Shown: positions 1 through 47,601 of the stretch, piece after piece
Position numbering within the stretch: position 1 is the stretch's first letter
How the letters are laid out: every line of letters starts with the position of its first letter
DNA from: Kineococcus endophyticus
GTDB taxonomy: Bacteria; Actinomycetota; Actinomycetes; Actinomycetales; Kineococcaceae
Assembly: GCF_040796495.1 (NCBI RefSeq)
Contig: NZ_JBFNQN010000007.1
Coordinates: 186,001 to 250,000 of the forward strand
Direction: 5' to 3'
Length of the DNA stretch: 64,000 nucleotides
The notes under the pieces: model-generated
Seen by the model: the letters and a program-made list of their open reading frames with translations, nothing else
Database searches by the model: none
Told to the model about the DNA's origin: nothing
Made by a program: the position numbers and the translations under genes

Positions 1-1409
1 CCGAGCCGTCCCCACAGCGCCAGGATCGCGCCGCGGACGGTGTGGGCGCCGGTGGCCTTCGACCAGTAGATCGCACCGCCGGAGTAGAACCGGTAGGACC
101 CGGCGCCGTTCGGGGTGTCGTTCTCGTCGGTCGTGGGACCGCCGAGGTTCCCGGCACCACCGATGGCGGCGTACTTCGCGGCGATGGCGGTGGTCGTCGC
201 CCCGCCGAGGAGCTGGCCCACGCGGTCGCGGATCGCGTCCATCTTCGTGAACCCGACGTTGCCGGGGCAGGCCGTGTAGCCGACGTCGCGGTGGGCGTTG
301 ATCGTGCGCAGCTTGACGGTCGTGCCGGGGGAGTACTTCGCGGTGCCGCCGCCGGCCGACGTCAGGTACGCGGCGCCGTCGGCGGGCAGGCCGTACATCG
401 ACAGCTTCCACGCGATGACCTGCGCCACGGACTCCAGGCACGCGGCGCTGGGGGCGATCGAGGTGAAGTCGCCCATCATCGAGACACCGAAGGTGTCGGT
501 GTTGAACCCGCCGGCGTGGGCGCCGACGACCGGCAGCGTGATGCCGCCCGCGCGGCCTTCCCAGATGCCGCCGAAGCGGTCGACGACGAAGTTGTAGCCG
601 AGGTCGGACCAGCCGAGGGAGACCGTGTGGTAGCGGTACATGCTGCGGATCACGGACGGCACGTCGGCCTGGTTGTAGGTCCCGCCGTCGGCGGTGTGGT
701 GCACGACGACGGCCTTGATGGTGTCGCTGTAGCCGACCCCGCCGCGGCGCAGGGACTCGTCGGCACCCCACTGGGCGCGGGTCCTGATGGCCGGCTGCGG
801 CAGCACCTTGGGGGAGGCCTTGGTGGCCTGCAGCTGGGCGTCGCGGTCGCTCGAGGCGGGGCTGGACAGCGTCGTGCGGGCCAGGGCGGAGGCCTCGCCG
901 GCGTCGACGACCTGCAGGTGCGCGTCGGCCACGTCGGCCTGCGGGAGGCGGACCTGGACCGTCGCGCCGGTGCCGAGCGCGCCGACCCACATCGGGTCCG
1001 AGGCGGTGACCGAGCGGCGTCCCTCGGCGGTGTCGGGGTCGGGCTCGGAGTCGTTGAGGGGCAGGTCGCTCCACCCGGTCCAGCCGCCGCCGGCGAGGCG
1101 GACGCGGACGGAGATCGTGTCGGTGGAGGCGCCCGAGGGGAAGGTGACGCCGACCATGTGCCCGCCGTCGACGGGAACGCTCACGACGGCCAGGCCGGGG
1201 CCGGCCTCCGCCTGCGCGGACGACAGCAGGGAGGCCGAGCGCTGGGCGCCGAGCGAGAACGCCCGGGTCGAGCCGGTGACCTGCAGGGCCGCGGGGCTGA
1301 GGGCGCTGGCCGAGTCGCTCCCGGCCGCCAGGCAGGCGCCGACGACGCCGGTGCCGACGGCACCCGTCAGCAGGGTGCGGCGGGACAGGGGGGTCTGGAC
1401 GGACCGCAT
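1..1409 (-). CDS. Tat-exported N-acetylmuramoyl-L-alanine amidase (PGRP type) with LGFP repeat, 3' end cut by window edge
   Basis: Predicted peptidoglycan amidase cleaving the bond between muramic acid and the stem peptide outside the membrane. The ATG at 1409 follows an AGAGAGG ribosome-binding site. The first ~36 residues carry a twin-arginine signal (SRRTLL then a hydrophobic Ala-rich stretch). A ~165-residue beta-rich region is followed by the PGRP/Amidase_2 domain from about residue 205: RAQWGADE, then VVHHTADGG (~237), GAHAGGFN and AHRDVGYTACPG (~380), the usual zinc His/His/Cys setting. From ~400 an LGFP repeat begins (GGAIYW) and runs off the window, so 469 residues are visible and more repeats probably follow. 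It is a close paralogue of the amidase at 7451-9088. The family call is firm; the exact substrate is inferred. Confidence 0.9.
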   Translation of the reverse strand, partial: MRSVQTPLSRRTLLTGAVGTGVVGACLAAGSDSASALSPAALQVTGSTRAFSLGAQRSASLLSSAQAEAGPGLAVVSVPVDGGHMVGVTFPSGASTDTISVRVRLAGGGWTGWSDLPLNDSEPDPDTAEGRRSVTASDPMWVGALGTGATVQVRLPQADVADAHLQVVDAGEASALARTTLSSPASSDRDAQLQATKASPKVLPQPAIRTRAQWGADESLRRGGVGYSDTIKAVVVHHTADGGTYNQADVPSVIRSMYRYHTVSLGWSDLGYNFVVDRFGGIWEGRAGGITLPVVGAHAGGFNTDTFGVSMMGDFTSIAPSAACLESVAQVIAWKLSMYGLPADGAAYLTSAGGGTAKYSPGTTVKLRTINAHRDVGYTACPGNVGFTKMDAIRDRVGQLLGGATTTAIAAKYAAIGGAGNLGGPTTDENDTPNGAGSYRFYSGGAIYWSKATGAHTVRGAILALWGRL

Positions 1410-1632
1410 CGGGTTCGTTCCTCTCTGGCGGGGGCGGTGCTCACTGCCGGTGCTCACTACGTGCGGGGACACACCCACACGGGCGAACGCTCGGCCTCGG
1501 CATCGGCGCATCGACTCCCGACCTTGAGCGTGTCGCTCCCGGGCTGTGCCCGGTCCGTCACGCAAAGTAGGGGACGATGCCTGTGGTGTACAAGGTGCTG
1601 GAGTGCACAACCTCGTAACACCTCTGTGGTCA

Positions 1633-1656
1633 CTCGTTTACTCTACGTCACAATCG
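1633..1656 (-). promoter_or_regulatory. Candidate direct-repeat operator upstream of the amidase
   Basis: On the minus strand this reads as GTGAC, GTAAA and GTGAC spaced by a few bases, resembling the GTNAC-type repeats bound by MtrA-like response regulators that control wall hydrolases. The spacing is irregular and the match is loose, so this is a weak suggestion only. Confidence 0.2.
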
Positions 1657-1713
1657 GCGCACGAGTCCCAGAGCTGAAGACACTTCCGGCACAGGTTCCT
1701 CCCTGGAACGACA

Positions 1714-1749
1714 CAGCCCTCCGAGCCCCGCAGGGGGCTCGGAGGGCTG
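1714..1749 (-). terminator. 16-bp perfect hairpin, terminator of the DUF1800-DUF1501 operon
   Basis: The arms 1714-1729 and 1734-1749 are exact reverse complements of 16 bases with a 4-base loop (GCAG). The hairpin lies about 110 bases beyond the DUF1501 stop codon. No real T-tract follows, which is common for actinobacterial terminators. Confidence 0.75.
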
Positions 1750-1861
1750 GTCCGGGGAACGGTCGGGGTGGGTCCAGCAAGCGTCCAGGGTGGTTCCAGA
1801 CGCCGTCCGGGGGACGCCTGCGCGGGTGCGATGTCACTGTCAGTGACGACGCAGCGGAGGG

Positions 1862-3154
1862 TCAGCGCGCGCGCACGACCCCCAGCGGGGAACCCCCGAA
1901 CCCGGGGAAGATCGTCCCCAGGGAACCGGCCCCGCAGCGCTTCTGCAGCACCTCGCCGATGACGCTGCGGTAGTCCGTCGTGCCGGCCAGGTCGCCGTCG
2001 ACGAGGCGGTCCGCGCCCAGGCCCGGCCACACGCCGTGCACGCGGCCACCGACCACGCCGCCGCCCAGCAGCAGGACGGCGTTCCCGTGGCCGTGGTCCA
2101 GGCCGCCGGAGGCGTTCTCGCCCACGCGACGGCCGAACTCCGACAGGGTCACCAGGGTCGTGGAGCCGAAGGCCGACCCCAGGTCGGTCGCGAAGGCCGC
2201 CAGGGCCGAGGACAGCTCGGTGAGCTTGTCGCGCATCCAGCCGCCGTCGACGCGGCCGAGTCCGGCGTGCATGTCCCAGTCGCCGTAGTCCAGGGCGATG
2301 ACCTGCACCGGGGCGCCGGACTTCTTCAGGACGGCGGCCTGGGCCAGCGCCCGCCCGAGGTCGGAGTCGGGGTAGGCCGCGCCGTTGGCGGGCCCGGCCG
2401 TCCGGCCCGGCAGCTTGGCCACGTCCTCCATGGCGCTCAGGAGCGTCGTCGCGGGCGCGGCGACCTCGGGCCGGGCGCCCGTGTGCATGCGGCGCAGCGC
2501 CGCGTGCCAGGTCGGCCGGTCGTCGCCGGGGCCGATGAGGCTGAACCCGTCCAGGGACGTCGTGGTCGTCTTCGGCGCCGGCCCGGCGAAGGAGCGCGGC
2601 TGCTGGTTGGAGATGCCGACGGCGCCCAGCACCGACCCGGTGCCGAGCGAGCCGATCGTCCGGTCGATCCAGCCGGTGCGCACCGAGCTGCCCGGTGCGG
2701 CCGTCTCCATCTGCTCCATGGCCGCGAAGTGCGAGCGCGTCGGGTCGGACTGGCCGACCGCGTGCACGACGCCGAAGGTCCCGTTCTTCCAGAACGGCAC
2801 GAGCGGGGCCATCGCGGGGTGCAGGCCGAACATCTGGTCCAGGCCGAGCAGCGTCGAGCGCGGGACGGCGATCGTCGGCCGTGCCGCGTAGTAGGCGCCG
2901 TCACCGCCGGGGACGACGGCGGACAGGCCGTCGAACCCGCCGTGCAGGCTGAGGACGACGAGCGTCTCGCCGTTCCAGCCGGGTGCGGCGAAGGACACCT
3001 GCGTCGAGACGTCGCCGACGGCGTAGGTGGTGACGCCGGTCGCGGCGGCCGCGAGGGCCGCGCGCAGGACGGTGCGGCGCGAGGTGAGGCGGGACCCCTC
3101 GGCGCAGCCGCAGCGCGGGTCGTTCGCGGTACCGGACGTGCTTGCGGTGCTCAC
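1862..3154 (-). CDS. DUF1501 family protein, Tat-exported
   Basis: 430-residue DUF1501 protein. The family has a sulfatase/alkaline-phosphatase-like fold but no settled biochemical role. The GTG at 3154 has GAGGAG just upstream and lies 8 bases after the DUF1800 stop, so the two are translated from one message. The N-terminus has a twin-arginine motif (TSRRTVLR) followed by an Ala-rich hydrophobic segment, indicating folded export. Typical family blocks are visible: LVVLSLHGGFDGLSAVVPGG near residue 65, SHFAAMEQMET near 140, ALDYGDWDMHAGLG near 295, LSEFGRRVGENASGGLDHGHG near 345. The HGG, DMH and DHG segments are the likely metal-site region, by analogy with the sulfatase fold. DUF1501 genes nearly always sit beside DUF1800 genes, as here. 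Confidence 0.9.
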   Translation of the reverse strand: MSTASTSGTANDPRCGCAEGSRLTSRRTVLRAALAAAATGVTTYAVGDVSTQVSFAAPGWNGETLVVLSLHGGFDGLSAVVPGGDGAYYAARPTIAVPRSTLLGLDQMFGLHPAMAPLVPFWKNGTFGVVHAVGQSDPTRSHFAAMEQMETAAPGSSVRTGWIDRTIGSLGTGSVLGAVGISNQQPRSFAGPAPKTTTTSLDGFSLIGPGDDRPTWHAALRRMHTGARPEVAAPATTLLSAMEDVAKLPGRTAGPANGAAYPDSDLGRALAQAAVLKKSGAPVQVIALDYGDWDMHAGLGRVDGGWMRDKLTELSSALAAFATDLGSAFGSTTLVTLSEFGRRVGENASGGLDHGHGNAVLLLGGGVVGGRVHGVWPGLGADRLVDGDLAGTTDYRSVIGEVLQKRCGAGSLGTIFPGFGGSPLGVVRAR

Positions 3155-3162
3155 GGGGCTCC

Positions 3163-4635
3163 TCAGCGGATCGTGAAGGACGGGGTGTCGAGGGTGAGGG
3201 CGACCAGGTAGCGCAGGTTGTTCTGCACCCACCGGTCCCCGGACGAGCAGGGCGAGCCCTCCGAGCGCCCCGCGTACTGCAGCAGCGCGGCCTTCTCGTC
3301 GGCGTTCAGCCGGCTGCCGGTCAGCCGCACGCCGAGGGCGTCGACGAGCGCGCCGTAGGTCGAGGGGATGCTCGGCAGCAGCTGCAGGGCGGGGGTGAAC
3401 CGCAGCTCCGGCGGGTACCAGCCCGCGGCGAAGTCCATGTGCCGGTTCCAGCGCGACAACGTCAGGCTGGGCGAGGTCCAGGCGGCGGCGACATCGGGGT
3501 AGCCGTTCGGCGCGGGCCACGCCATCGGCGCGTGCCCCTGGTCCAGCACGTGCCAGAAGATCTTGGTGATGCCGCCGACACCGCTGGACTCCATGCCCGT
3601 GCCCAGCGTGCGCAGCGTCGCGACGTAGTCCTCCTGCGGCGTGCGCACCTTCTGCCCCGCCGAGGCCCAGAAGTGGGTGGAGTCGAACATCGTCCGCAGC
3701 ACCGGCACGACCTGACCGCCGGTCTGGACCCAGGTGCGGGCCATCGCGTCGAGCAGCGCGGCGGGCGGGGTGTCGGAGACGAAGCGGGTGGCGAGCTTGG
3801 CGGACAGCCGGCGGGCGGTGACCGGGTGGACCGCCAGCCAGCGCAGGTAGGCGTCGATCCAGCCGTTGCCGTCGGCGGCCGAGTGCGGGGGCACTCCGAA
3901 GCCGTAGATCGAGCGGCCGGCGCCGTCGTGGCGGCCGGCGTCGTAGGTCCCGCCACCGTCGCGGCCGATGGTCAGCCCCGTCAGCAGGCGGGCGGAGTTC
4001 TTCACGTCCGCCTCGGAGTAGCCCGCCTCGACGCCGAGGGTGTGCAGCTCGAGGAGTTCGCGACCGTAGTTCTCGTTGGGCTGCGCGGCGGTCGAGCTCG
4101 TGTTGTCGAGGTACGTCAGCATCGCGGGGTGGCGGGCCGAGGCCACGAGCATGTCGCCGAAGCTGCCGAACGCGTGGCGGCGGACGACGTTCCGGTCGTA
4201 GTCCTGGCGGCTCGCCCAGACCTCCGAGCTCGGGTTCGTGACGTGCAGGACGTTGTTCCAGACGTCCACGACGACCTCGAACAGCTGACGCGTGCTCCAG
4301 ATCTGCCGGGCCAGCGTGAGCCGGCCCGTCTCGAGCATGGCGTTCCACTCCGTCGCGGCGTACCCGCCGGTCCAGAGGTCCTGCGCCGAGCGGCCGTAGA
4401 ACCGCATGCGGCCCGCGAAGGCGTCCACGGCCCCGTCGTCGATCGCCCCGGGGTCCAGCTGCCGGTCCAGCCACGCGGCCGTGCCGAGGCGGGCGACCTC
4501 GGCGAGGGCGTCGGGGGTGGGCCCCCACGTCGCGCGGCGCAGCAGGTGCAGCTGGGCGGCGGCGGTCTCGTGCGCGAAGGGGGCGGTCGCGGCCCGGCGG
4601 CGGCCGCGGGTGAGGGGCGAGGAGGGCACGGCCAC
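3163..4635 (-). CDS. DUF1800 family protein
   Basis: 490-residue DUF1800 protein of unknown biochemical function, first gene of a two-gene operon with the DUF1501 gene. The family signature is clear: HLLRRATWGPTPDAL near residue 30, WNNVLHVT near 127, LNEN-like QPNENYGRELLELHTLG near 185, then FASLATRFV-like KLATRFVSD near 285. No classical signal peptide is evident. The GTG at 4635 touches the 3' edge of a GCCGAGAA promoter-like box (4636-4643). If that box is a true -10, transcription starts inside these first codons and the working start would be the GTG at 4629, as a leaderless message. The two choices differ by two residues. Confidence 0.85.
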   Translation of the reverse strand: MAVPSSPLTRGRRRAATAPFAHETAAAQLHLLRRATWGPTPDALAEVARLGTAAWLDRQLDPGAIDDGAVDAFAGRMRFYGRSAQDLWTGGYAATEWNAMLETGRLTLARQIWSTRQLFEVVVDVWNNVLHVTNPSSEVWASRQDYDRNVVRRHAFGSFGDMLVASARHPAMLTYLDNTSSTAAQPNENYGRELLELHTLGVEAGYSEADVKNSARLLTGLTIGRDGGGTYDAGRHDGAGRSIYGFGVPPHSAADGNGWIDAYLRWLAVHPVTARRLSAKLATRFVSDTPPAALLDAMARTWVQTGGQVVPVLRTMFDSTHFWASAGQKVRTPQEDYVATLRTLGTGMESSGVGGITKIFWHVLDQGHAPMAWPAPNGYPDVAAAWTSPSLTLSRWNRHMDFAAGWYPPELRFTPALQLLPSIPSTYGALVDALGVRLTGSRLNADEKAALLQYAGRSEGSPCSSGDRWVQNNLRYLVALTLDTPSFTIR

Positions 4636-4676
4636 TTCTCGGCAGGGGATCTTGGGAGCTTGAGCCGGACGGGTGA
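4636..4676 (-). promoter_or_regulatory. Flagellar-sigma-like promoter of the DUF1800-DUF1501 operon
   Basis: On the minus strand an 18-base element (4676 to 4659, TCACCCGTCCGGCTCAAG) is followed by exactly 15 bases and then GCCGAGAA (4643 to 4636). FliA/WhiG-type sigma factors recognise a -35 near TAAA or CTCA and a -10 near GCCGATAA with about 15 bases between. The same 18 bases with the same spacing occur upstream of the chemotaxis receptor (6393-6433). The match to the sigma class is inference; the repeat and spacing are seen directly. Confidence 0.55.
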
Positions 4677-4706
4677 CGGGCCCCCGCCCGGTCCCTTGTC
4701 CCGCGT

Positions 4707-4764
4707 GGAAAACACTCTTTCCGCCCTCGGAACGCGTGTTCCGAGGGCGGAAAGAGTGTTTTCC
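4707..4764 (-). terminator. 27-bp perfect palindrome between receptor and DUF1800 genes
   Basis: Arms 4707-4733 and 4738-4764 are exact reverse complements of 27 bases around a 4-base loop (GCGT). The outer part of each arm is AT-rich (GGAAAACACTCTTTCC), so transcripts from either strand would end the stem in a U-rich run. It lies 34 bases beyond the receptor stop codon and probably terminates that gene. The length and perfection exceed a normal terminator. Confidence 0.75.
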
Positions 4765-4798
4765 AAGCGGGGTGGGGACGGGCGGTGACGGGGGGTCG

Positions 4799-6382
4799 TC
4801 AGAGGGTGAAGGCGCCGGTGAGTTGCTTGAGCCGGGCGGCGGCCTGGGAGACCTCGGCGGCCGTGGTGGCCGTCTGCTGCGCGCCGGCCGTCGTCTGGTC
4901 GGCTGCGGCCGCGACGCCGGAGACGTTGAGGGCGATCTCCTGGGAGCCGGTGGAGACCTCGCTGACGTTGCGCACCATCTCGCCCGTCGTCGCCGACTGC
5001 TCCTCCACGGCCGCGGCGATGGTGGCCTGCAGGGCGTCGATGCGCGTGATGACGTCGGTGATCTCGCCGATGGCGCCGGCGGCCTCGTCGACGTCGTGCT
5101 GGGTCGCGGCGACGCGGGCCGTGATCGACTCGGTGGCGCGCGCGGTCTGCTGCGCGAGCTCCTTGACCTCCCCGGCCACGACGGCGAAGCCCTTGCCCAT
5201 CTCCCCGGCCCGGGCCGCCTCGATGGTCGCGTTGAGCGCCAGCAGGTTCGTCTGCTCGGCGATCGAGGTGATGAGCTTGACGACCTCGCCGATCTCCCGG
5301 CTCGAGGCCGACAGGCGCTGCAGGGTCTGGCCCGCGCCGTCGGCGGCGCTGACCGCGGAGGCGGCGGTCGCGGAGGCGTCCGCGGTGGAGGTGGCGATCT
5401 CGCCGATGGCGGCGGTCATCTGCTCGCCGGCGGCCGCGACGGTCCCGATGTTCGCACTGATCTCCTCCGCGGCGGCCGAGACCACCTGCGTCTGGGCGGC
5501 GGACTCCTCGGCGCCGGCCGAGAGCTGGGTCGCGACGGCGGACAGTTCCTCGCTGGAACCGGCCAGCACGTCGGCCGTGGCGGAGATCTGGGTCATCGTC
5601 GTGGACAGCGAGTCCATCGTCTGGTCCAGGGCGAGGGCCAGCTGGCCGATCTCGTCGCCCGCGGTGTAGCGCACGCGCTGGTCCAGGCGCCCGTCGGCCA
5701 TGCCGCGCACGACGGTCGCTGTGCGGGCCAACGGGTTCGTGATGGACCGGGCGACCAGGAAGGCCACGGCGGCGGCCGCGGCGAGGGCGACCACGCCGAG
5801 ACCGATGAGCAGGACCAGCGCCTCGCGGTAGCGGGTGGCGCCCAGGTCGCCCGTCGCGGTCGCGTTGTCCACCTCGGCCTTCTGGATCCGGTCCAGCGTC
5901 GTGTTGATCCGCACGGCGACGGGCGTGGTCTTCGCGTCGCGGACCGAGATGAAGCCGGCGACGTCGTCCGCGGTCGCGAGGGTGACGAGTTCCTGCCGCG
6001 CGCTGCGGTAGGCGGCGAGGTCGGCGGCGAAGGAGTCCCGGTCGGCCTGGGTGGAGACGGGGAACGTGTCGAGGTACACCTCCCACGCCGCGTCGAGCGC
6101 GGTGTCGTCGGTGCGCATGGCGTCCAGGGACGCGGTCGTCGCCTGCGGCCCGGACGCGAGGGCGGCGGAGACGAGGTCGACGCGCGACTGCGCGAAGGCG
6201 TACTTCACCGCCCCGATGCTCTGCACCCCGGGCACGACGACGTCCGACATCGACGCCACCGTGTCCTGCGCCGTGTGGAGCTGCTTGACGCCCAGCCCGA
6301 CGGCTGCGGCCAGCAGCAGGCACACCACGCCGAAGCCGGCGGCGAGCTTGCGGGAGACGCGGAGGTCGCGCAGTCGGGTCAT
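4799..6382 (-). CDS. Methyl-accepting chemotaxis protein
   Basis: 527-residue transmembrane chemoreceptor that signals ligand state to CheA/CheW. Order: short cytoplasmic N-terminus, first membrane helix about 13-33, periplasmic four-helix-type sensor about 34-185, second membrane helix about 188-212, HAMP, then the long coiled-coil signalling domain. The hairpin tip is recognisable around residues 390-410 ([20 protein letters not shown] then [12 protein letters not shown]). No C-terminal methyltransferase-tether pentapeptide is present. ATG at 6382 is preceded directly by an in-frame GTG (6385); both sit a few bases after a promoter-like GTCGATGG, so the message is probably leaderless. Single gene, closed by the palindrome at 4707-4764. 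Confidence 0.93.
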
Positions 6383-6392
6383 CACCCCAGTG

Positions 6393-6433
6393 CCATCGAC
6401 CGCCGCGCCGCCCACCTTGAGCCGGACGGGTGA
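6393..6433 (-). promoter_or_regulatory. Flagellar-sigma-like promoter of the chemoreceptor gene
   Basis: Minus-strand positions 6433 to 6416 repeat exactly the 18 bases found before the DUF1800 gene. Fifteen bases later comes GTCGATGG (6400 to 6393), and the receptor start is about 11 bases beyond. The arrangement fits a FliA-type promoter, which is what a chemoreceptor gene in a motile organism should have. Sequence identity and spacing are direct observations; the sigma assignment is inference. Confidence 0.6.
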
Positions 6434-6437
6434 GGAG

Positions 6438-7451
6438 TCAGTGCAGCCGGACCTGCGCGCCGCCCGCCGCCGTCCACGTGACGACGCCGCCCTGGAACTC
6501 CGAACGCCGGACGCCGTCGCGGGAGTGCTCGTCGCTCGTGGGGAACCCCAGGGCGGACGTCTCCCAGCCGAGCCCGGCCCAGGCCGCGCGGATGGCCCCG
6601 TGCACCTCGTACGCGCCGGTGGACGGGCTCCAGTAGACCGAGCCGGTCTCGAAGTGGTTCGCGCGACCGCCGCGGACCGCGAGCTCGTCCGTCACCGGCA
6701 GGCCGAGGACGTCGACGAGCTCGTCGTCGAAGTACGCGGCCGCGATGGCCCCCGACACGCCCCGGGCCTGCGTGCGGTCCGACCACAGGATCGACCCGTT
6801 CTCGTACGAGCGGGTCCGGGCCCCGGCGTACCGGGAGGGGCCGCCGACGGGGTCGCCGAGCGAGGAGTCACCCGCGCCGAGGGCCACCCAGTGCCCCTCC
6901 ACGGGGTCCGTCCGCCCCGTCCACCACGACGTCTCGCGCGCGCCGCCGCGGTGGGACAACGAGAGGTGGACGTGGTCGGTGTGCGGGCTGGCCCCGGTGT
7001 ACGGCTGCCAGCCCTGCGCTGCGCGGTAGGACTTCCAGACCTGCCCGTCCCAGATGACGTACATGACCCCGAGGCGGCGGGCGTTGCGCGCGTCGTCGGC
7101 GAGCAGCCAGTCGAGGAACTCCCGGGCCGTCGCCGCGTCGGCGGGGTCGCCCGCGTCGAGCATCCAGTCCAGGGCCCGGCCGTCGTGGTGCTCCGAGCTC
7201 ACCGCCCCGGCGGGGCAGGCGCGGTGGGTCCCGATGGTCTGCGCCCCGTACGTCGCCAGGAGCAGGTCGCGCAGCGCGGTCGTCCCGGGCTGGACGTCCG
7301 CGCAGGTCGTGGCGCCCTCGTAGTCGGCGAGGTCGTCGACGGCGGCGGGCAGGTGGGCCGGCGCCGGGGGAGGGGTGGCGGACGCGGAGGGCACGCCGAG
7401 CGCCACGCAGGCCGCACCCGCCAGGACGGCGGCGGGCAGGGAGCGGCGCAT
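6438..7451 (-). CDS. Secreted VanY/ARB_07466-like wall peptidase with LGFP repeats
   Basis: 337-residue exported protein. A signal peptide with an Ala-rich core covers about residues 1-26. The catalytic-type domain shows [10 protein letters not shown] near 85 and [12 protein letters not shown] near 155, the His/Asp metal-ligand pattern of M15-like peptidases related to VanY and the ARB_07466 C-terminal family. From about 180 to the end are three LGFP-type repeats ([23 protein letters not shown]), which are thought to bind the cell wall. Its ATG shares one base with the TGA of the upstream amidase (TGATG at 7449-7453), so the two are translationally coupled. Likely role: trimming wall peptides together with the amidase. 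Confidence 0.8.
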
Positions 7452-9088
7452 CACGCCTCCCGCACCCGGCCGGTGGCCGCGCTCCAGCGCAGCCCCCCGC
7501 CCTCGAAGTCCGAGGCCCGTCCCCCCGGCACGTCGTACTCGTCCGAGACCGGGAACCCGAACCGGGACCGTTCCCAGCCCTGCCCGGCCCACACCGCGCG
7601 CAACGCGCCGAGGACGACGTGCGGCTCGGAGCCGCTGCGGCGGTAGATCGACCCGTGCTCGAAGTGGGTGTAGCTGCCGACCGCCCCGGGCAGGTCCGTG
7701 GTGTCGGCCGTGGGAAACCCCAGGGCCGACCACTCCCACCCGAGCGCGGCGTACTTGGACCGGTGGGTCGCGCGCACGACGTGCGTCCCGGTGTCGGGGT
7801 GGTGGTAGATCGAACCACGTTCGTAGTGCCGGAACCGCCCGCCGCGCAACGCGTCCCCCTCCCCGCTCGTCGGTTCGCCGAGCAGCGCCGGCCCGTCGAC
7901 CTCGGCGTAGCGGCGGGCGATGGCCGACCCTGCGCCCGAGCGGCGGGTCGTCCCCAGACGGGCGGCGACGCGGTCGCGCAGGTCGTCCATGCGCGTGTAG
8001 CCCACGTCGCCGGGGCAGGCGGTGTAGCCGAGGTCGCGGTGCGCGCTGATGGTGGCGACCTCGACGGTGCGGCCCGCCGCCCACCGGGAGGTCCCGCCGC
8101 CGGACGACGTCAGCGTCGTGCGGCCGCGCGCGTCGAGGCCGTGCAGGGAGAACTTCCAGGCGATGACGGCCGCGACGGCGGCCAGGCACTCCTCGGTCGG
8201 CGCGACCGCGGAGAAGTCGCCCATCATCGAGACCCCGAAGGTCCCCGTGTTGAACCCGCCGGCGTGGGCGCCGACGACCGGCCGGGCCACGCCGCCGGCG
8301 CGCCCCTCCCAGATCCCGCCGAAGCGGTCGACGACGACGTTGTACCCCAGGTCGCTCCAGCCCAGCGTCTGCGTGTGGTAGCGGTACATGCCCCGGATCA
8401 CGGCGGGCACCTCGGCGCGGGAGTAGCCGCCGCCGTCGGCGGTGTGGTGGACGACCGCGGCGCGCAGGGTGTCCGCCACGTCGGGGTCGGCGCGGCGCAG
8501 CAACTCGTCCGCGCCCCAGTCCGCGCGCGGCCGGACGACCGGGGCGTCACCGGCGGCGGCCCCGGTCCCACCGCTCAGCGTGCGCGCGGTGCGCGCCGGG
8601 TCCGGGCCGGGATCGACGACCGCGAGCCGAGCCCCCGCCACGGCCTCGCGCGGCAGCCGGACGTCGACCACGGTGCCCACCGGCAGCGCGCCGGTCCAGA
8701 CCGGGTCGGTCGTGCCGTCCTCGATGGACAGCGGCCTCCACGGGCCGGGGTCGGCGCCCGGGCGCGTCACGCGCAGCGCGATCGACGCCGGCGCGGGGCC
8801 GGCGAAGGTCACCCCGAGCATGCTGCCGCCGTCGACGGGCAGCGTCACGACCGCCAGGTCCGAGGACCCGGCGGAGGACAGGAGCGAGCGGACCGGCGGC
8901 AGCGGGATCGCCCGCACCCCGCCGGGCGACCCACCCGGCAGCCGGCGCGCCTGGGCCGGTACGGCCGCGACCGCGGGGTCGGCGCCGAGCGCGGCCACCG
9001 CGGCCAGGGCTCCGCCGGCGCCCGTCAGGGCCGCACGGCGGGACAACGCGAAGCGGGCAGGCACACGGGAGGTCGTGGGCGAGGGCAT
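7451..9088 (-). CDS. Tat-exported N-acetylmuramoyl-L-alanine amidase (PGRP type) with three LGFP repeats
   Basis: 545-residue paralogue of the amidase at 1-1409. The start at 9088 has GGAG 10-11 bases upstream and gives a good Tat signal (LSRRAALTG followed by an Ala-rich helix). The PGRP/Amidase_2 domain runs from about 186 to 370 with RADWGADE, VVHHTADGGG, GAHAGGFNTG and AHRDLGYTACPGD. Three LGFP repeats follow (GSIYHHP, ALGFPTADT, GSIYRRS, RFGFPVSDE, GGGLRWS). It is the first gene of a two-gene wall-remodelling operon with the peptidase whose ATG overlaps its stop. It would act outside the membrane on peptidoglycan. Confidence 0.92.
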   Translation of the reverse strand: MPSPTTSRVPARFALSRRAALTGAGGALAAVAALGADPAVAAVPAQARRLPGGSPGGVRAIPLPPVRSLLSSAGSSDLAVVTLPVDGGSMLGVTFAGPAPASIALRVTRPGADPGPWRPLSIEDGTTDPVWTGALPVGTVVDVRLPREAVAGARLAVVDPGPDPARTARTLSGGTGAAAGDAPVVRPRADWGADELLRRADPDVADTLRAAVVHHTADGGGYSRAEVPAVIRGMYRYHTQTLGWSDLGYNVVVDRFGGIWEGRAGGVARPVVGAHAGGFNTGTFGVSMMGDFSAVAPTEECLAAVAAVIAWKFSLHGLDARGRTTLTSSGGGTSRWAAGRTVEVATISAHRDLGYTACPGDVGYTRMDDLRDRVAARLGTTRRSGAGSAIARRYAEVDGPALLGEPTSGEGDALRGGRFRHYERGSIYHHPDTGTHVVRATHRSKYAALGWEWSALGFPTADTTDLPGAVGSYTHFEHGSIYRRSGSEPHVVLGALRAVWAGQGWERSRFGFPVSDEYDVPGGRASDFEGGGLRWSAATGRVREA

Positions 9089-9173
9089 GGGGTGGTGCGC
9101 TCCGTCCGTCAGGGGATGTGACGGAACGTAGGCGATCTGTGTGTCTGTTGTAAATGGAGTGGTGGGTGGTGCG

Positions 9174-9192
9174 TGTGTGACATCTGTGTGAC
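9174..9192. promoter_or_regulatory. Direct repeat TGTGTGAC x2 upstream of the amidase operon
   Basis: TGTGTGAC occurs at 9174-9181 and 9185-9192, an 11-base period that places both copies on one face of the helix. It lies about 90 bases upstream of the amidase start, next to an AT-richer patch (TTTACAAC on the minus strand, near 9150) that may be the -10 region. It could be an operator; the regulator is unknown. Confidence 0.3.
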
Positions 9193-9277
9193 GCGGCGGG
9201 GTGCTGCGGGCGCCGAGAGGCTGGGGTGGCGGTCGCGCGGTGTCCAGCCTCCTGGGCAACAGCGGGACCGACCGTCG

Positions 9278-10470
9278 TCAGGATTCGTGCTGTCGGCGGA
9301 TGTAGTCGTCCATGTGGGGCACGGTGAACTGGAGGAGGCCCCGGTCGGGGGCGTAGATGAGCCCCTTCTTGATGAGTCCGTCACGGCTCACGCTGAGGTC
9401 GCTGGGCTTCCTCTTGCCCAGTCGGGTGACGAGGTCCGCGATCTGGCTCCTGCCGGAGTCCTCGGCCATGGCTCGCATGAGCGTCTTCTGCGCCGGCGTC
9501 GCCCTGTTCCACCGCGAGTGGAAGAGGCTGTCGTCCAGGACCGACGTCGCCTCGGCGATGGCTACTGCCGCGTCACTGAGGACGATCTCGTCGGGACCAG
9601 GGGCGAGCCGCCACGCCTGGTCGCCGAAGACCTGGACGAAGTAGGGATAGCCCCCGGAGGCCGCCACGAGCCGGTCGAGAGCCGCAGGCTCGTACGTGAC
9701 GCCTTCCTCTGCCGCCGGATCGGCGAAGGCCGCCCGCGCGTCCGCTGCGGACAGGGCGCCGATCTGCACGAAGTGGAACCGCTCGGCGGAGGACCGGACG
9801 TCGGCCAGTCGAGCTGGCACGTTCGGGAGGCCGGCGCCGTAGAGGTGGAACGGCCAGCCGTTCTGCCCGGCTCGGTGCTGGACCGAGATCAGGGCGCTGA
9901 GAGCAGAGGGGGCGAGGTCTTGGATCTCGTCGACGAAGATGCCCAGCCCGGTCCGGCTCTCCTGCAAGGCCGGCACCATGTCGTGGACCAGCTCCTCCAG
10001 GTCCATCTCGGCATCGCCCGTGTCCCCCCGGCCGCGGCTGGGGTCCACGCCGAGGCTCACCTCGACTCCGGTCGCGCCGGCTGCGGCGGAGAAGGAGCTG
10101 ATGGTTCCGAGCGCTCGACGCCACGTGTCGGTCAGCGCCGTGCTGCGCCCCACGGTCCTGCGTGCGGCAGAGACGAGGCCTCGCGCCAGGCGGCGGCGGG
10201 TGTGCTGCTGCTCGGACGCCTCCTGCTTGCCCTCGATCTCGACCGTCAGCCAGCCGGCGGCATCCGCCTGCGTGTGGAGGGCCTTGAGGAGGACGGTCTT
10301 GCCGACCCCGCGCAGGCCGTAGAAGATCGGCGCTGTCGCGGAACGACCCTGCGCCGTTCGGTCGACGACCGTACGGCCTGCGGCGAGCTCGGACTCGCGG
10401 CCGACCAGAGCAGGTGGGGGCTTGCCTGCTCCCGGGGTGTACGGGTTGCGGGTCTGGTCCGCGCGGCCAC
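9278..10470 (-). CDS. AAA ATPase with C-terminal winged helix; no canonical start in frame, possible frameshift or pseudogene
   Basis: The frame encodes an Orc1/Cdc6-like stand-alone ATPase: RNPYTPGAGKPPPALVGRE at the N-terminus, Walker A GLRGVGKT (around 10300), Walker B GLGIFVDEIQDL, and a winged-helix tail (SDLSVSRDGLIKKGLIYAP). Family members normally start shortly before the RNPY...GAG motif. Here no ATG or GTG exists in this frame from upstream of that motif until GTG 10153, which lies beyond the Walker A. A GTG at 10470 with GAGAAAG beside it is in another frame; one base shift would join it to the ATPase frame, hence the coordinates given. Either the gene is damaged, has a sequence error, or uses a non-standard start. 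Confidence 0.55.
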
Positions 10471-43942: not shown

Positions 43943-46102
43943 ATGACCTTCTTGTTGCGTCGCGTCCGGGTGGGCGCACGCTTCGCCATCGCGTTCGGGG
44001 TGATCCTGGCGCTGACCCTGCTCACCGGCGTGGTCGCCTACGTCGGGAACCAGGCCCAGACCGAGGCCGTGGAGCAGACCCGCAACACCGCCAAGGTGGT
44101 GGCGTACGCGAGCCAGCAGAAGTTCTGGGGCGCCGACGTCTCCGGCTGGCAGACCGGCTTGGCGCTCGACACCTACCGCAAGGGCACGCAGGCTGCGCTG
44201 GACCCGGCCTCCCCGAGCCTCGTCGGCCTGGAGAAGGACAAGGCGGGCCTGCGGCTGGACCTGCTCACCGCCCCGCTCAGCATCATGACCCCGTCCGAGC
44301 AGGCCATGAACAAGCAGCTCATCCTGCTGTGGGACAACTGGATCGACGCCAACAACCGCGCGCAGATCGCCTACCGCGACAACCGCGTCGCCGACGCCGA
44401 GGGCTACCTGCAGAACGGCCTCGACACCTTCGCCAAGATCGTCACGCTGACCGACCAGCTGAAGGCGTCCGTCGAGGCGCGCGACGCCGCCGCCCAGGCC
44501 TCCGCCGCGCACACCGCGCGCCTGGCCCAGGGCTTCATCGTCGGCTTCGCCGTCCTGGCCGTCGTGCTCGTGGCCCTCATGCTGCTGGCCCTGATCCGCA
44601 CCGTCGTCGTCCCGCTGCGCGCGCTCACCGCCCGCGCCGACGAGGTCGCCTCCCAGCGCCTGCCCGAGGCCATCACCGCGGTCCGCGCGCTGCCGGCCGA
44701 CGCGACGCCGCCCACGCTGCCCGCGTTCTCCGTCACCACCAAGGACGAGCTGGCCGACCTGGCCGTCGCGTTCAACCACGTGCAGGACAGCGCCCTCGAC
44801 CTCGCCGTCGAGCAGCACCGCGCCGACCGCGCCGCCGCCGAGATGCTCGTCAACCTCGGCCGCCGCAACCAGAACCTCCTGAGCCGCACCCTGGCCTTCC
44901 TGGCCGACCTGGAGCGCAACGAGCGGGACCCGCAGGTCCTCGACAAGCTGTTCAAGCTCGACCACCTCTCCACCCGCGTCCGCCGCAACGCCGAGTCGAT
45001 GCTCGTCCTGGCCGGTGCGGAGCAGACCCGCGCGAAGACCCGTCCGGTCAAGGTCGCCAGCGTCGTCCGCGCCTCGCTGGCCGAGATCGAGGACTACTCC
45101 CGCGTCGACCTGTCCACCCTCGACGACGTCACGCTGCACGGCAGCGCCGCCGCCGACACCACGCACCTCCTGGCCGAGCTGCTGGAGAACGCCACCGCCT
45201 TCTCCGCCGGCAGCACCCGCGTCGTCGTCACCGGCACCGCCACCCTCGAGGGCGGCTACCGCATCGCCATCGCCGACGCCGGCATCGGCATGAGCGCCGA
45301 GGAGCTCGAGGAGGCCAACAGCCGCATCGCCTACGCGGCGCTGACCCGTCCGGACTCCCGCCTCCTCGGTCACCACGTCGTCGGTCTGCTGGCCGACCGC
45401 TGGTCGATGGGCGTCGTCCTGTCCGCCGGTGCGAGCGCCGGCATCGTCGCGACCGTCACCCTGCCGCCGTCGCTCCTCGTCGAGGCCCCGGCTGGTGCCC
45501 CGGTCGAGGCCCCCGTCGAGGCCGCTGCCGCGGTCGCCCCGGTGACCGCGCCGGTCGTCCCGGTCGCCGAGCCCGCGCTCGTCGCCGCCGTCGCGGCGGT
45601 CCAGGCCGCCCCGGTCGTCGAGGCCCCCGTGGCCCCGGCTGCTCCGGTCGCCGCTCCGGTCGCCGCTCCGGTCGCCCACGTGGCGCCCGTCGCCCCGGCC
45701 GCTCCCGTCGCCCCGGCCGCTCCCGTCGCGGCGCCCGCCCCGGTCCCGGCCCCCGCGCCGGCTCCGGTCCAGGAGTCGGCCCCGGCCGTCCCCTCGGCCC
45801 GCGTCCGCGGTGCCCAGCTCGGCGAGCTCGGCCGTGACCTCGGCCGCACCGCCGACACCGGGTCGGGCCCCGTCGTGGCCTCCCTGCCCGTCGAGGTGCC
45901 GGCCCCGGCCGCGCCGGTCGTGCCGACCCGCGTCCGCGGCGCCCAGCTGCCGGACACCGGGGAGGACGCCGCCGCGACGGCGACCACGTCCCGTTCCGCC
46001 GAGCAGGTCCGCCGCGGCCTGTCCGGCCTGCAGAGCGGTGTCTCCCGCGCCCGTCGCGAGAGCGCCGAGCAGTCCTCCGACGCGTCCCCCGAGAGCGAGT
46101 GA
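43943..46102 (+). CDS. cvnA: Conservon sensor histidine kinase (CvnA-like) with Ala/Pro/Val-rich tail
   Basis: 719-residue membrane kinase-like protein. Two helices (about 12-34 and 190-213) enclose a ~155-residue extracellular nitrate-sensor-like domain; then a HAMP-type linker, an LFKLDHLSTRVRRNAESML block near 340, and an HATPase domain with N box LLAELLENATAFS and GIGMSAEELEEAN. Residues ~515-650 are almost only Ala, Pro and Val. Two copies of RVRGAQL follow near 617 and 660. ATG 43943 has GAGGAGCAAGG. First of four genes cvnABCD. In conservons the proteins form a membrane complex that resembles eukaryotic G-protein-coupled signalling. Confidence 0.88.
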   Translation: MTFLLRRVRVGARFAIAFGVILALTLLTGVVAYVGNQAQTEAVEQTRNTAKVVAYASQQKFWGADVSGWQTGLALDTYRKGTQAALDPASPSLVGLEKDKAGLRLDLLTAPLSIMTPSEQAMNKQLILLWDNWIDANNRAQIAYRDNRVADAEGYLQNGLDTFAKIVTLTDQLKASVEARDAAAQASAAHTARLAQGFIVGFAVLAVVLVALMLLALIRTVVVPLRALTARADEVASQRLPEAITAVRALPADATPPTLPAFSVTTKDELADLAVAFNHVQDSALDLAVEQHRADRAAAEMLVNLGRRNQNLLSRTLAFLADLERNERDPQVLDKLFKLDHLSTRVRRNAESMLVLAGAEQTRAKTRPVKVASVVRASLAEIEDYSRVDLSTLDDVTLHGSAAADTTHLLAELLENATAFSAGSTRVVVTGTATLEGGYRIAIADAGIGMSAEELEEANSRIAYAALTRPDSRLLGHHVVGLLADRWSMGVVLSAGASAGIVATVTLPPSLLVEAPAGAPVEAPVEAAAAVAPVTAPVVPVAEPALVAAVAAVQAAPVVEAPVAPAAPVAAPVAAPVAHVAPVAPAAPVAPAAPVAAPAPVPAPAPAPVQESAPAVPSARVRGAQLGELGRDLGRTADTGSGPVVASLPVEVPAPAAPVVPTRVRGAQLPDTGEDAAATATTSRSAEQVRRGLSGLQSGVSRARRESAEQSSDASPESE

Positions 46103-46104
46103 CC

Positions 46105-46542
46105 ATGTCCGTCAGCACCGTCAGCACCGTCAGCCAGAACGCGCAGGACGTCAACTTCCTGCTCGAGCGCTTCGTCGCCCAGACCCCCGGCGTGGAACAG
46201 GCCATCGGGGTGTCCTCGGACGGGCTGCTCATGACGATGCGGGCCGACCTGGTCCGCGCCGACGCCGACAAGCTCGCCGCCACGGTGTCGGGCCTGACGA
46301 CGCTGGCCGTCTCGGCCTCCCGCCTGCTGTCCAAGGGCCCGCTGAGCCAGGTCATCACCGAGTTCGGCTCGGGGTACCTGCTGGTGTCCTCGATCGCCGG
46401 GCGCGCCTGCCTCGGTGTCGTCACCTCCGCCGACTGCGACCTCGGGCTCGTCGGCTACGAGACGACGATGCTCGTCGAGCGCGTCGGCTCGCTGCTCACG
46501 CCCGAGCTCGTCACCGAGCTGAAGACGTCCCTGCAGCTGTGA
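46105..46542 (+). CDS. cvnB: Roadblock/LC7-domain protein (CvnB-like)
   Basis: 145-residue roadblock/LC7 protein that probably regulates the CvnD GTPase. Core features: LLERFVAQTPGVEQAIGVSSDGLL, LAATVSGLTTLAVSASRLL and QVITEFGSGYLLVSSI. ATG 46105 is used (GAGAG 9 bases upstream); GTG 46099 overlapping the cvnA stop is an alternative. The next gene overlaps its stop (GTGA at 46539). Confidence 0.92.
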   Translation: MSVSTVSTVSQNAQDVNFLLERFVAQTPGVEQAIGVSSDGLLMTMRADLVRADADKLAATVSGLTTLAVSASRLLSKGPLSQVITEFGSGYLLVSSIAGRACLGVVTSADCDLGLVGYETTMLVERVGSLLTPELVTELKTSLQL

Positions 46543-47018
46543 ACCCCGACGAGTTCGCGGAGTTCGACGACTTCGACGAGTTCGACCGCCCGTTCCTCGG
46601 TGCCGGGGCACCCGCCCCCACCACCGCTCCGGCCGCCGGGCACCCGGAGGCCGGGCCGGCCGAGGAGCCGGGGGAGGCGCACGATGAGGTCCGCGCCTAC
46701 CTCCTGACGGGCGGTCGCACGGGCGGCGGCACGGCCGGGATCGCCATGGAGACCACCGCCGTCCTGACCCCGCAGGGGGAGCAGGCGGTGGCCTCCGGTG
46801 CCCTCGCCTTCGAACCCGGCCAGGTCCTGCAGGTCTGCGCGCAGGCGCGGTCGGTCGCCGAGGTGGCCGCCCTCGTCGGCATCCCCCTGGGCGTCGCCCA
46901 GGTCCTGGTCGGCGACCTCGTCGGCCGTGAACTGCTCATCACGACGTCCACCGCGAAGTCCCTCGCGTTCGACGTCTCGTTCATCGAGAGGTTGATCAAC
47001 GGTGTCGCTGCCCTCTGA
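46539..47018 (+). CDS. cvnC: DUF742 protein (CvnC-like)
   Basis: 159-residue protein. A Phe/Asp-rich start (FAEFDDFDEFDRPF) and Pro/Ala linker lead to the DUF742 winged-helix-like region from ~50 (VRAYLLTGGRTGGG, VLQVCAQARSVAEVAALVGI, VLVGDLVGRELL). It is the third conservon member. GTG 46539 overlaps the cvnB stop by 4 bases and its own end overlaps cvnD by 17 bases, so all four are tightly coupled. Confidence 0.9.
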   Translation: MNPDEFAEFDDFDEFDRPFLGAGAPAPTTAPAAGHPEAGPAEEPGEAHDEVRAYLLTGGRTGGGTAGIAMETTAVLTPQGEQAVASGALAFEPGQVLQVCAQARSVAEVAALVGIPLGVAQVLVGDLVGRELLITTSTAKSLAFDVSFIERLINGVAAL

Positions 47019-47601
47019 CGTCCGGCCGTCCGCTCCCGTCGCCGTGAAACGACCGCCCATCCCGGTGAAGATCCTGGTCTCCGGCGGGTTCGGGGTCGGC
47101 AAGACCACGACCGTCGGCGCGCTGTCGGAGATCGAGCCGCTGAGCACCGAGGCCGCCATGACCTCGGCCTCGCTCGGCGTCGACTACGCCGGGGAGGGCA
47201 GCCAGAAGACGACGACGACGGTGGCCATGGACTTCGGCCGCGTCACCATCGACGACAGCATCATCCTGTACATGTTCGGCACCCCCGGGCAGGACCGGTT
47301 CGGCTTCATGTGGAACGACCTCGCGGACGGGGCCCTCGGCGGCATCGTCCTGGTCGACCCCAGCCGCATCGACGACTGCTTCGTGGCGCTGGACTACTTC
47401 GAGAAGATCGGCCTGCCGTTCGTGCTGGCCGTCAACTCCTTCGCGGGCCGCGACCAGCTGACGCTGGACCAGGTCCGCGCCGCCGCCAACGTCGACCCCG
47501 CGGTCCCGGTCGTCGCCCTCGACGCCCGCAGCCGCGAGGACGTCAAGCGCGCCGTCCTCACCCTGCTGCAGCTCATCCTGTCGCGGGCCAAGGCGGCCTG
47601 A
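47002..47601 (+). CDS. cvnD: Conservon small GTPase (CvnD-like)
   Basis: 199-residue Ras-like GTPase. P-loop GGFGVGKTT near residue 28, switch II FGTPGQDRF near 93, then the base-specificity region VLAVNSFAGRD, where the usual N-K-x-D is changed, as is normal in CvnD proteins. It would be the switch controlled by CvnB/CvnA. GTG 47002. It converges on the metallopeptidase-like gene with only a 20-base gap and no clear terminator. Confidence 0.93.
   Translation: MSLPSDVRPSAPVAVKRPPIPVKILVSGGFGVGKTTTVGALSEIEPLSTEAAMTSASLGVDYAGEGSQKTTTTVAMDFGRVTIDDSIILYMFGTPGQDRFGFMWNDLADGALGGIVLVDPSRIDDCFVALDYFEKIGLPFVLAVNSFAGRDQLTLDQVRAAANVDPAVPVVALDARSREDVKRAVLTLLQLILSRAKAA

Follow-up and report, generated by a model that had tools for sequence, protein, structure and literature searches.

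Candidate flagellar-type promoters in front of a chemoreceptor gene and a DUF1800-DUF1501 gene pair in Kineococcus endophyticus

We have analyzed a stretch of 64,000 nucleotides from Kineococcus endophyticus (C7:186001-250000), here called the window, together with the whole genome of 5,038,552 bases in 46 contigs. Near the beginning of the window four genes lie on the minus strand. They encode a methyl-accepting chemotaxis protein, a DUF1800 protein, a DUF1501 protein and a protein with Amidase_2 and LGFP domains. The features of this region are the following.

3-1409, minus strand: Amidase_2/LGFP gene, cut by the start of the window (PF01510, 65.2 bits; PF08310, 63.3 bits); twin-arginine-like N-terminus
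1503-1528, minus strand: CTCAAG-N15-GCCGA site, 93 nt 5' of the Amidase_2/LGFP gene
1862-3154, minus strand: DUF1501 gene (PF07394, 91.9 bits), 8 bases past the DUF1800 gene; twin-arginine-like N-terminus
3163-4629, minus strand: DUF1800 gene (PF08811, 394.7 bits), likely leaderless from GTG 4629; start of the longest frame at 4635
4639-4643, minus strand: -10-like box GCCGA of the putative DUF1800 promoter; G[CT]CGA at exactly N15 is kept at 10 of 10 loci in the genus
4659-4676, minus strand: 18-bp element 5' of DUF1800, consisting of the block TCACCCGTCCGG and the -35-like CTCAAG (4664-4659)
4706-4765, minus strand: hairpin with perfect arms of 28 base pairs and a loop of 4 bases, located past the receptor stop codon and before the putative DUF1800 promoter
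4799-6385, minus strand: methyl-accepting chemotaxis protein gene (MCPsignal, HAMP, 4HB_MCP_1, TarH), likely leaderless from GTG 6385, with ATG 6382 following
6396-6400, minus strand: -10-like box GTCGA of the putative chemoreceptor promoter, read from the sequence
6416-6433, minus strand: 18-bp element 5' of the chemoreceptor gene, with the -35-like CTCAAG at 6421-6416

The DUF1800 and DUF1501 genes are adjacent and co-oriented, both score above the curated Pfam cut-offs, and we presume that they form one operon. The N-termini of DUF1501 (SRRTVLRAALAAAA) and of the amidase (SRRTLLTG) are both twin-arginine-like as judged by eye, not by a signal predictor. The DUF1800 protein has no N-terminus of this type. 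Its structure was predicted with confidence (pLDDT 87.5, pTM 0.89) and consists largely of helices. A Foldseek search with this model found no match in the PDB at E<=0.001, which does not prove a new fold; VIA-align against 701 chains returned no Z of 5 or more, and the DUF1800 sequence profile had no PDB match at E<=1. The DUF1501 sequence had no match in the PDB, and its model is poor (pLDDT 56.7). Between the receptor and the DUF1800 gene, the hairpin folds with -75.9 kcal/mol for 96 nt (z -13.1) and coincides with terminator-like matches on both strands (2 found in 1-9500, 1.1 expected). It is a probable terminator, so that the DUF1800 gene would need a promoter of its own. A search for RNA families near the module gave 3 matches with E values of 1 or less; each of them paired this long hairpin with an animal RNA model, at a score far under the gathering threshold. 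Upstream of the DUF1800 promoter the window holds the receptor gene and two LGFP genes. At 43943-47601 of the window, three small genes come after the gene for a HAMP/HATPase protein, and the third of them matches ATP_bind_1; the set resembles an actinobacterial conservon.

A preliminary description of this DNA had drawn attention to an 18-bp element, TCACCCGTCCGGCTCAAG, that is repeated without mismatch on the minus strand. A scan of the window located both copies at the reported places (4676-4659 and 6433-6416) and found no third one even when 3 mismatches were allowed (0.15 matches expected). Two or more matches occurred in only 1 of 100 shuffled windows. Over all 5,038,552 bases the two copies in the window are the only exact ones; 18 near-matches elsewhere in the genome carry 2 or 3 mismatches, three of them 2. 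One of these closest relatives, at C14:132476, again belongs to a putative promoter of the CTCAAG-N15/16-GYCGA kind and lies 5' of an EAL gene. At both copies in the window, exactly 15 bases separate CTCAAG from GCCGA (4643-4639) or GTCGA (6400-6396), just as had been described; the sequences of the two spacers differ. The site in front of the Amidase_2/LGFP gene is new to the present analysis.

The genome search proposed earlier, for CTCAAG-N15/16-G[CT]CGA, was carried out and yielded 60 matches versus 23 for the reversed pattern. At a wrong spacing of 19-20 the same two words occur 6 times (the corresponding reversed pattern 20 times), and none of these 6 sites is promoter-like, by which we mean intergenic and situated at most 260 nt 5' of a co-oriented gene. 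With the proper spacing, 32 of the 60 sites are intergenic and 31 are promoter-like, where 2.4 would be expected from the background rate in the window of 722 in 17,716 positions (binomial P ~3e-27). The two sites that defined the motif are counted among the 31; without them the ratio is 29 of 58. Genes were called by a simple, purpose-written codon-usage caller, which makes the starts approximate. At the promoter-like sites the -10-like box reads GCCGA 24 times and GTCGA 7 times, and the second base after the box is a G at 25 of the 31. The 28 of the 60 matches that are not intergenic lie within genes, and this would suit a resemblance that arose by chance or from coding sequence, given the high GC content of the genome. 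We consider such an explanation highly improbable; it is contradicted by the enrichment 5' of genes, by a peak of start codons at a fixed distance and by conservation at 10 of 10 loci, both described below.

In the FliA/WhiG class, transcription begins about 8-11 nt past GYCGA by the usual numbering of the -10 box. An in-frame start codon is found at exactly this distance at 17 of the 31 promoter-like sites (at 10 it is the called start, at 7 an in-frame alternative to it), while no 4-nt window with its first base at 12 to 99 nt contains such a codon for more than 7 of the 31 sites. Thus, near-leaderless messages appear to be a property of the regulon. The peak can also be used to correct start codons, for instance that of DUF1800. 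This gene likely starts at the second GTG (4629), 9 nt past GCCGA, and not at the first at 4635, and the receptor gene likely starts at GTG 6385, 10 nt past GTCGA. We prefer both starts because of the genome-wide peak and of the conservation in the genus. The claim that start codons lie close behind both boxes is thereby refined, and the sequence agrees with the view that both messages would be nearly leaderless.

The genes directly behind the 31 sites were classified with Pfam on proteins taken from 3-kb loci, some of which are cut by the locus ends. As the preliminary description had anticipated, the motif stands before flagellar and chemotaxis genes. The flagellar first genes encode a FlgB-type rod protein, FliQ, FlhA and the FliA-family sigma factor itself, and the signalling first genes encode four MCPsignal chemoreceptors, six GGDEF/EAL proteins and two PAS proteins. 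One further first gene encodes a T2SSE ATPase (L062, C13:23434) that we read as PilT-like, and pili may therefore be co-controlled with flagella. Altogether 17 of the 31 first genes are flagellar, chemotaxis, PAS, GGDEF/EAL, sigma or PilT-like genes, which is a plain count without a gene-class background. Three encode wall or surface proteins (Malectin/GH26, CWB2 and Amidase_2/LGFP) and one is the DUF1800 gene. Five belong to other families (EamA, class-V aminotransferase, MtN3, MmeI and MarR), and five have no Pfam match. The MmeI-type restriction-modification gene (L070, C26:7629) has an in-frame start 10 nt past its motif copy, which could be chance.

Two genes of the genome are strong candidates for the sigma factor. 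The FliA_WhiG profile matches C5:214481-215161 with 281.9 bits and C8:31596-32252 with 188.4 bits, just under the cut-off of 189.6; seven other sigma genes match with 113.1 bits or less. The gene on C8 is probably FliA, because it adjoins flgN and has the motif in front. Downstream of it, the flagellar region contains a partial Mutator-family transposase (L179:3164-3610). The gene on C5 adjoins a tyrosine recombinase and is, as we assume from its neighbourhood, a WhiG. Since two members of the family are encoded, the "FliA" of our reading could be WhiG. If the WhiG-like factor on C5 reads the sites, the module would be tied to the developmental or c-di-GMP state and not to flagellar assembly, a possibility that we regard as real, although the less likely one. 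The C5 gene has the higher profile score of the two, and promoter specificity is common to WhiG and the flagellar sigma factors; in Rubrobacter, WhiG is predicted over type IV pilus and GGDEF/EAL genes (PMC8325347), and the Kineococcus set also includes the T2SSE ATPase and the six GGDEF/EAL genes. However, it is the C8 gene that carries a site and adjoins flgN, and the same motif is present at flagellar structural genes, even though WhiG could act upstream of all of these. We infer binding by a sigma factor of this family and favour FliA rather than WhiG as the acting one.

Conservation was followed in a genus set of 11 genomes and a family set of 12. FlhA is present in 12 of the 12 family genomes and DUF1800 in 9, with 10 loci that all belong to Kineococcus. 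With the DUF1800 alignment of the genus as query, records of Kineococcus vitellinus, K. rubinsiae, K. siccus and Kineococcus sp. TRM81007 were found at 56-72 percent identity; two of them are identical in every letter to contigs of the genus set (G010:C239 and G008:C20). The site is found 5' of DUF1800 at every one of the 10 loci in the 9 genomes, always with N15 and followed after 9-10 nt by a GTG that is in frame and open; this includes the second locus of one genome (G003), whose protein has 47 percent identity to that of the window. Mean column identity over the 10 loci is 0.98 for the 11 core bases, 0.84 for the 12 bases upstream, 0.69 for the spacer and 0.57 further upstream. The DNA just upstream of the promoter varies from genome to genome (L169-L176). 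A DUF1501 homolog follows DUF1800 at 9 of the 10 loci, that is, at all whose contig extends far enough. The Amidase_2/LGFP gene is preceded by its site at 8 of 8 testable loci, the window included; this count leaves out one locus at a contig end (L176) and the second G003 locus (L177), which has no such gene adjacent. The Amidase_2 domain is found in the window gene and in 6 of the 7 counterparts; in the remaining one (L171) the contig ends ahead of the domain. The core does not vary among the amidase genes, and the leader behind it has a mean identity of 0.91 over 25 bases. This leader (window 1410-1545, L169-L175) contains the conserved GCCGATGCC...GAGCGTT, with ACTTTGCGTGACG upstream at 6 of the 8 loci, and its window part has no Rfam match.

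Ten of the 11 genus genomes contain the longer sequence CACCCGNNCGGCTCAAG, with 19 copies in all, versus 0 for the reversed controls. Of these copies 18 continue with N15/16-GYCGA, and 9 of the 18 stand before DUF1800. In several genomes the block CACCCGNNCGG is also present 5' of CTCAAG at other promoters, among them that of an EAL gene (L064/L166). We have considered a possible link between the upstream CACCCG and the direct repeat GCA(A/C)CCG that forms the TcrA box in Actinoplanes (PMC12691653).

The chemoreceptor gene is the exception to this conservation, as the genus yielded no clear ortholog that has this promoter as well. Of 26 relatives of the receptor gene with a gene call, 6 have a site at <=1 mismatch, and of these 6 two are own-genome genes already counted and one has its site inside a called gene. 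The set comprised 30 loci, of which 4 were dropped because they had no gene call; two of the relatives have little upstream DNA (L206, L224) and one is probably in the wrong frame (L202). It is a real possibility, although the less likely one, that the identity of the 18 bp goes back to a recent local copy. The receptor gene would then have moved in between the DUF1800 promoter and the former neighbour of that promoter and taken a duplicate of it, and one promoter would be seen twice, not two independent members of a regulon. The restriction of the 18-mer to these two places in the genome fits such an event, as do the nine other loci, where no receptor lies beside DUF1800 and the upstream DNA varies, and the receptor relatives that mostly lack the site. 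Yet the identity ends at 18 bp, the spacers differ, and the recurrence of CACCCGNNCGG before CTCAAG at other promoters in several genomes means that selection alone could give the 18-bp match.

Outside Kineococcus, the nearest resemblance is in Pseudokineococcus, where CTCAAG-N15-GACGA (one mismatch), with an ATG 10 nt on, lies 5' of a DUF1800-DUF1501 pair; none of the matches listed in a literature search on motility in Pseudokineococcus was relevant. The DUF1800 locus of Quadrisphaera has no such site. We scanned the 29 DUF1800 loci from the 20 other flagellated genomes with DUF1800 in a sample of the class and 40 hand-chosen loci from non-flagellated ones, with <=1 mismatch and a spacing of 14-17. 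Any match was found at 7 of 29 flagellated versus 5 of 40 non-flagellated loci (opposite strand, 1 of 29 versus 0 of 40), where shuffling gives rates of 2.7 and 2.0 percent, respectively. The exact N15 site near the DUF1800 start was present at 1 of the 29 (G104, L126) and at 0 of the 40. Its absence is partly uninformative in flagellated genomes with a lower ratio of motif to reversed control, as the local motif may differ; this ratio ranges from 0.8 to 5.4 in the 20 genomes and reaches at least the 2.6 of K. endophyticus in 5 of them. In these five equally enriched genomes (G324, G039, G074, G306, G353) the N15 site stood at 0 of 6 DUF1800 loci. Among 394 genomes sampled from the class, DUF1800 occurs in 117, FlhA in 51 and both in 21, a weak co-occurrence that is not significant (odds ratio 1.8, P 0.07, kinship ignored). 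A flagellar-type promoter is thus not a general trait of the DUF1800/DUF1501 pair. The suggestion that the pair is co-expressed with motility finds support as a sequence trait of Kineococcus (10 of 10 loci) and does not hold as a general rule, 28 of the 29 other flagellated loci being without the exact site. Since the DUF1800 genes of other flagellated genomes mostly lack the site, the motility link would be a trait of Kineococcus, perhaps shared by its nearest relatives.

Taken together, we hold it to be the best explanation, at a probability of roughly 85 percent, that the two elements are promoters of the FliA/WhiG (sigma-28) class that make leaderless messages and that the DUF1800-DUF1501 genes and the amidase gene form a module switched on with the flagella. 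The promoter reading had been put forward in the preliminary description. It is supported by the -10 core and the spacing of the -35 word, the enrichment in the genome, the flagellar and chemotaxis neighbours, the peak of start codons, a family sigma factor in the genome and, except for the receptor, the conservation in the genus. The Kineococcus consensus would be CTCAAG-N15-G[CT]CGA, mostly followed by one base and a G. A holoenzyme carrying the sigma factor would start transcription about 9-10 nt past GCCGA, on or beside the start codon, so that the DUF1800 and chemoreceptor messages would be leaderless. The DUF1800-DUF1501 operon and the Amidase_2/LGFP gene, the latter from its own site, would be expressed at the same time as the flagella, the chemoreceptors and the enzymes of c-di-GMP. 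This suggests that DUF1800, DUF1501 and the neighbouring cell-wall enzyme gene are active when Kineococcus cells turn into swimmers, and we infer that the module serves a change of envelope or matrix as clustered cells become motile zoospores. More speculatively, a large and partly leaderless flagellar-sigma regulon might have recruited a secreted DUF1800-DUF1501-amidase module whose products remodel the wall or the cluster matrix and let the motile zoospores leave. If this is true, the DUF1800/DUF1501 pair would have a role that is open to experiment.

The element itself is of an ordinary kind and had been recognised correctly from the beginning. For its conserved set of targets we found no description in the literature searched. 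DUF1800, with its wide occurrence in the class sample, and DUF1501 are widespread and little studied. A conserved promoter of a known class tells when, and with which other genes, they should be on, so that mutants can be examined in the appropriate state, that of motile zoospores. The 31 sites also provide a candidate regulon for motility in Kineococcus. In Kineococcus radiotolerans a FliA homolog is present, a thick matrix keeps the cells together in clusters, and the spores swim under some conditions only; the authors of the genome paper were unable to work out fully how its motility island is regulated (PMC2587704).

Promoters of the flagellar type (sigma-28, FliA/WhiG) have been described before, with a consensus of TAAA at -35 and GCCGATAA at -10, and in Rubrobacter such promoters are in use and were checked against transcription start sites (PMC8325347). 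The Kineococcus sites share with this class the GCCGA core, a distance of 15-16 bp to the -35 word and a position before flagellar, chemotaxis, pilus-type and GGDEF/EAL genes. However, their -35 word is CTCAAG and not TAAA, the -10 box is without the TAA of GCCGATAA, 17 of the 31 sites are near enough to an in-frame start for a leaderless message, and the upstream CACCCGNNCGG recurs. The WhiG regulon predicted for Rubrobacter radiotolerans agrees in sigma class and in its GGDEF/EAL and pilus targets; type IV pilus and DGC/PDE genes are those named there (PMC8325347), and Kineococcus would add flagella, chemoreceptors and the DUF1800-DUF1501-amidase module. In the zoospore-forming actinomycete Actinoplanes missouriensis the family sigma factors FliA1-3 act in sporangium formation and dehiscence (PMC13293333, PMC11064477), and a leaderless gene, atsA, has been reported from Actinoplanes (PMC11064477). 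Unlike those of Kineococcus, two Actinoplanes DUF1800 homologs (L191, L195) have GCCGA 10 nt before the start without a -35 word of the CTCAAG type. The DUF1800-DUF1501 genes, both referred to as domains of unknown function, have also been found adjoining bacterial chitin synthases, with a twin-arginine signal on DUF1501 (PMC5122149). Kineococcus has the same gene pair with a twin-arginine-like DUF1501. In contrast to the chitin synthase loci, no chitin synthase was seen among the Pfam-scanned window genes next to the pair, and its neighbour is instead an Amidase_2/LGFP gene under putative flagellar-type control.
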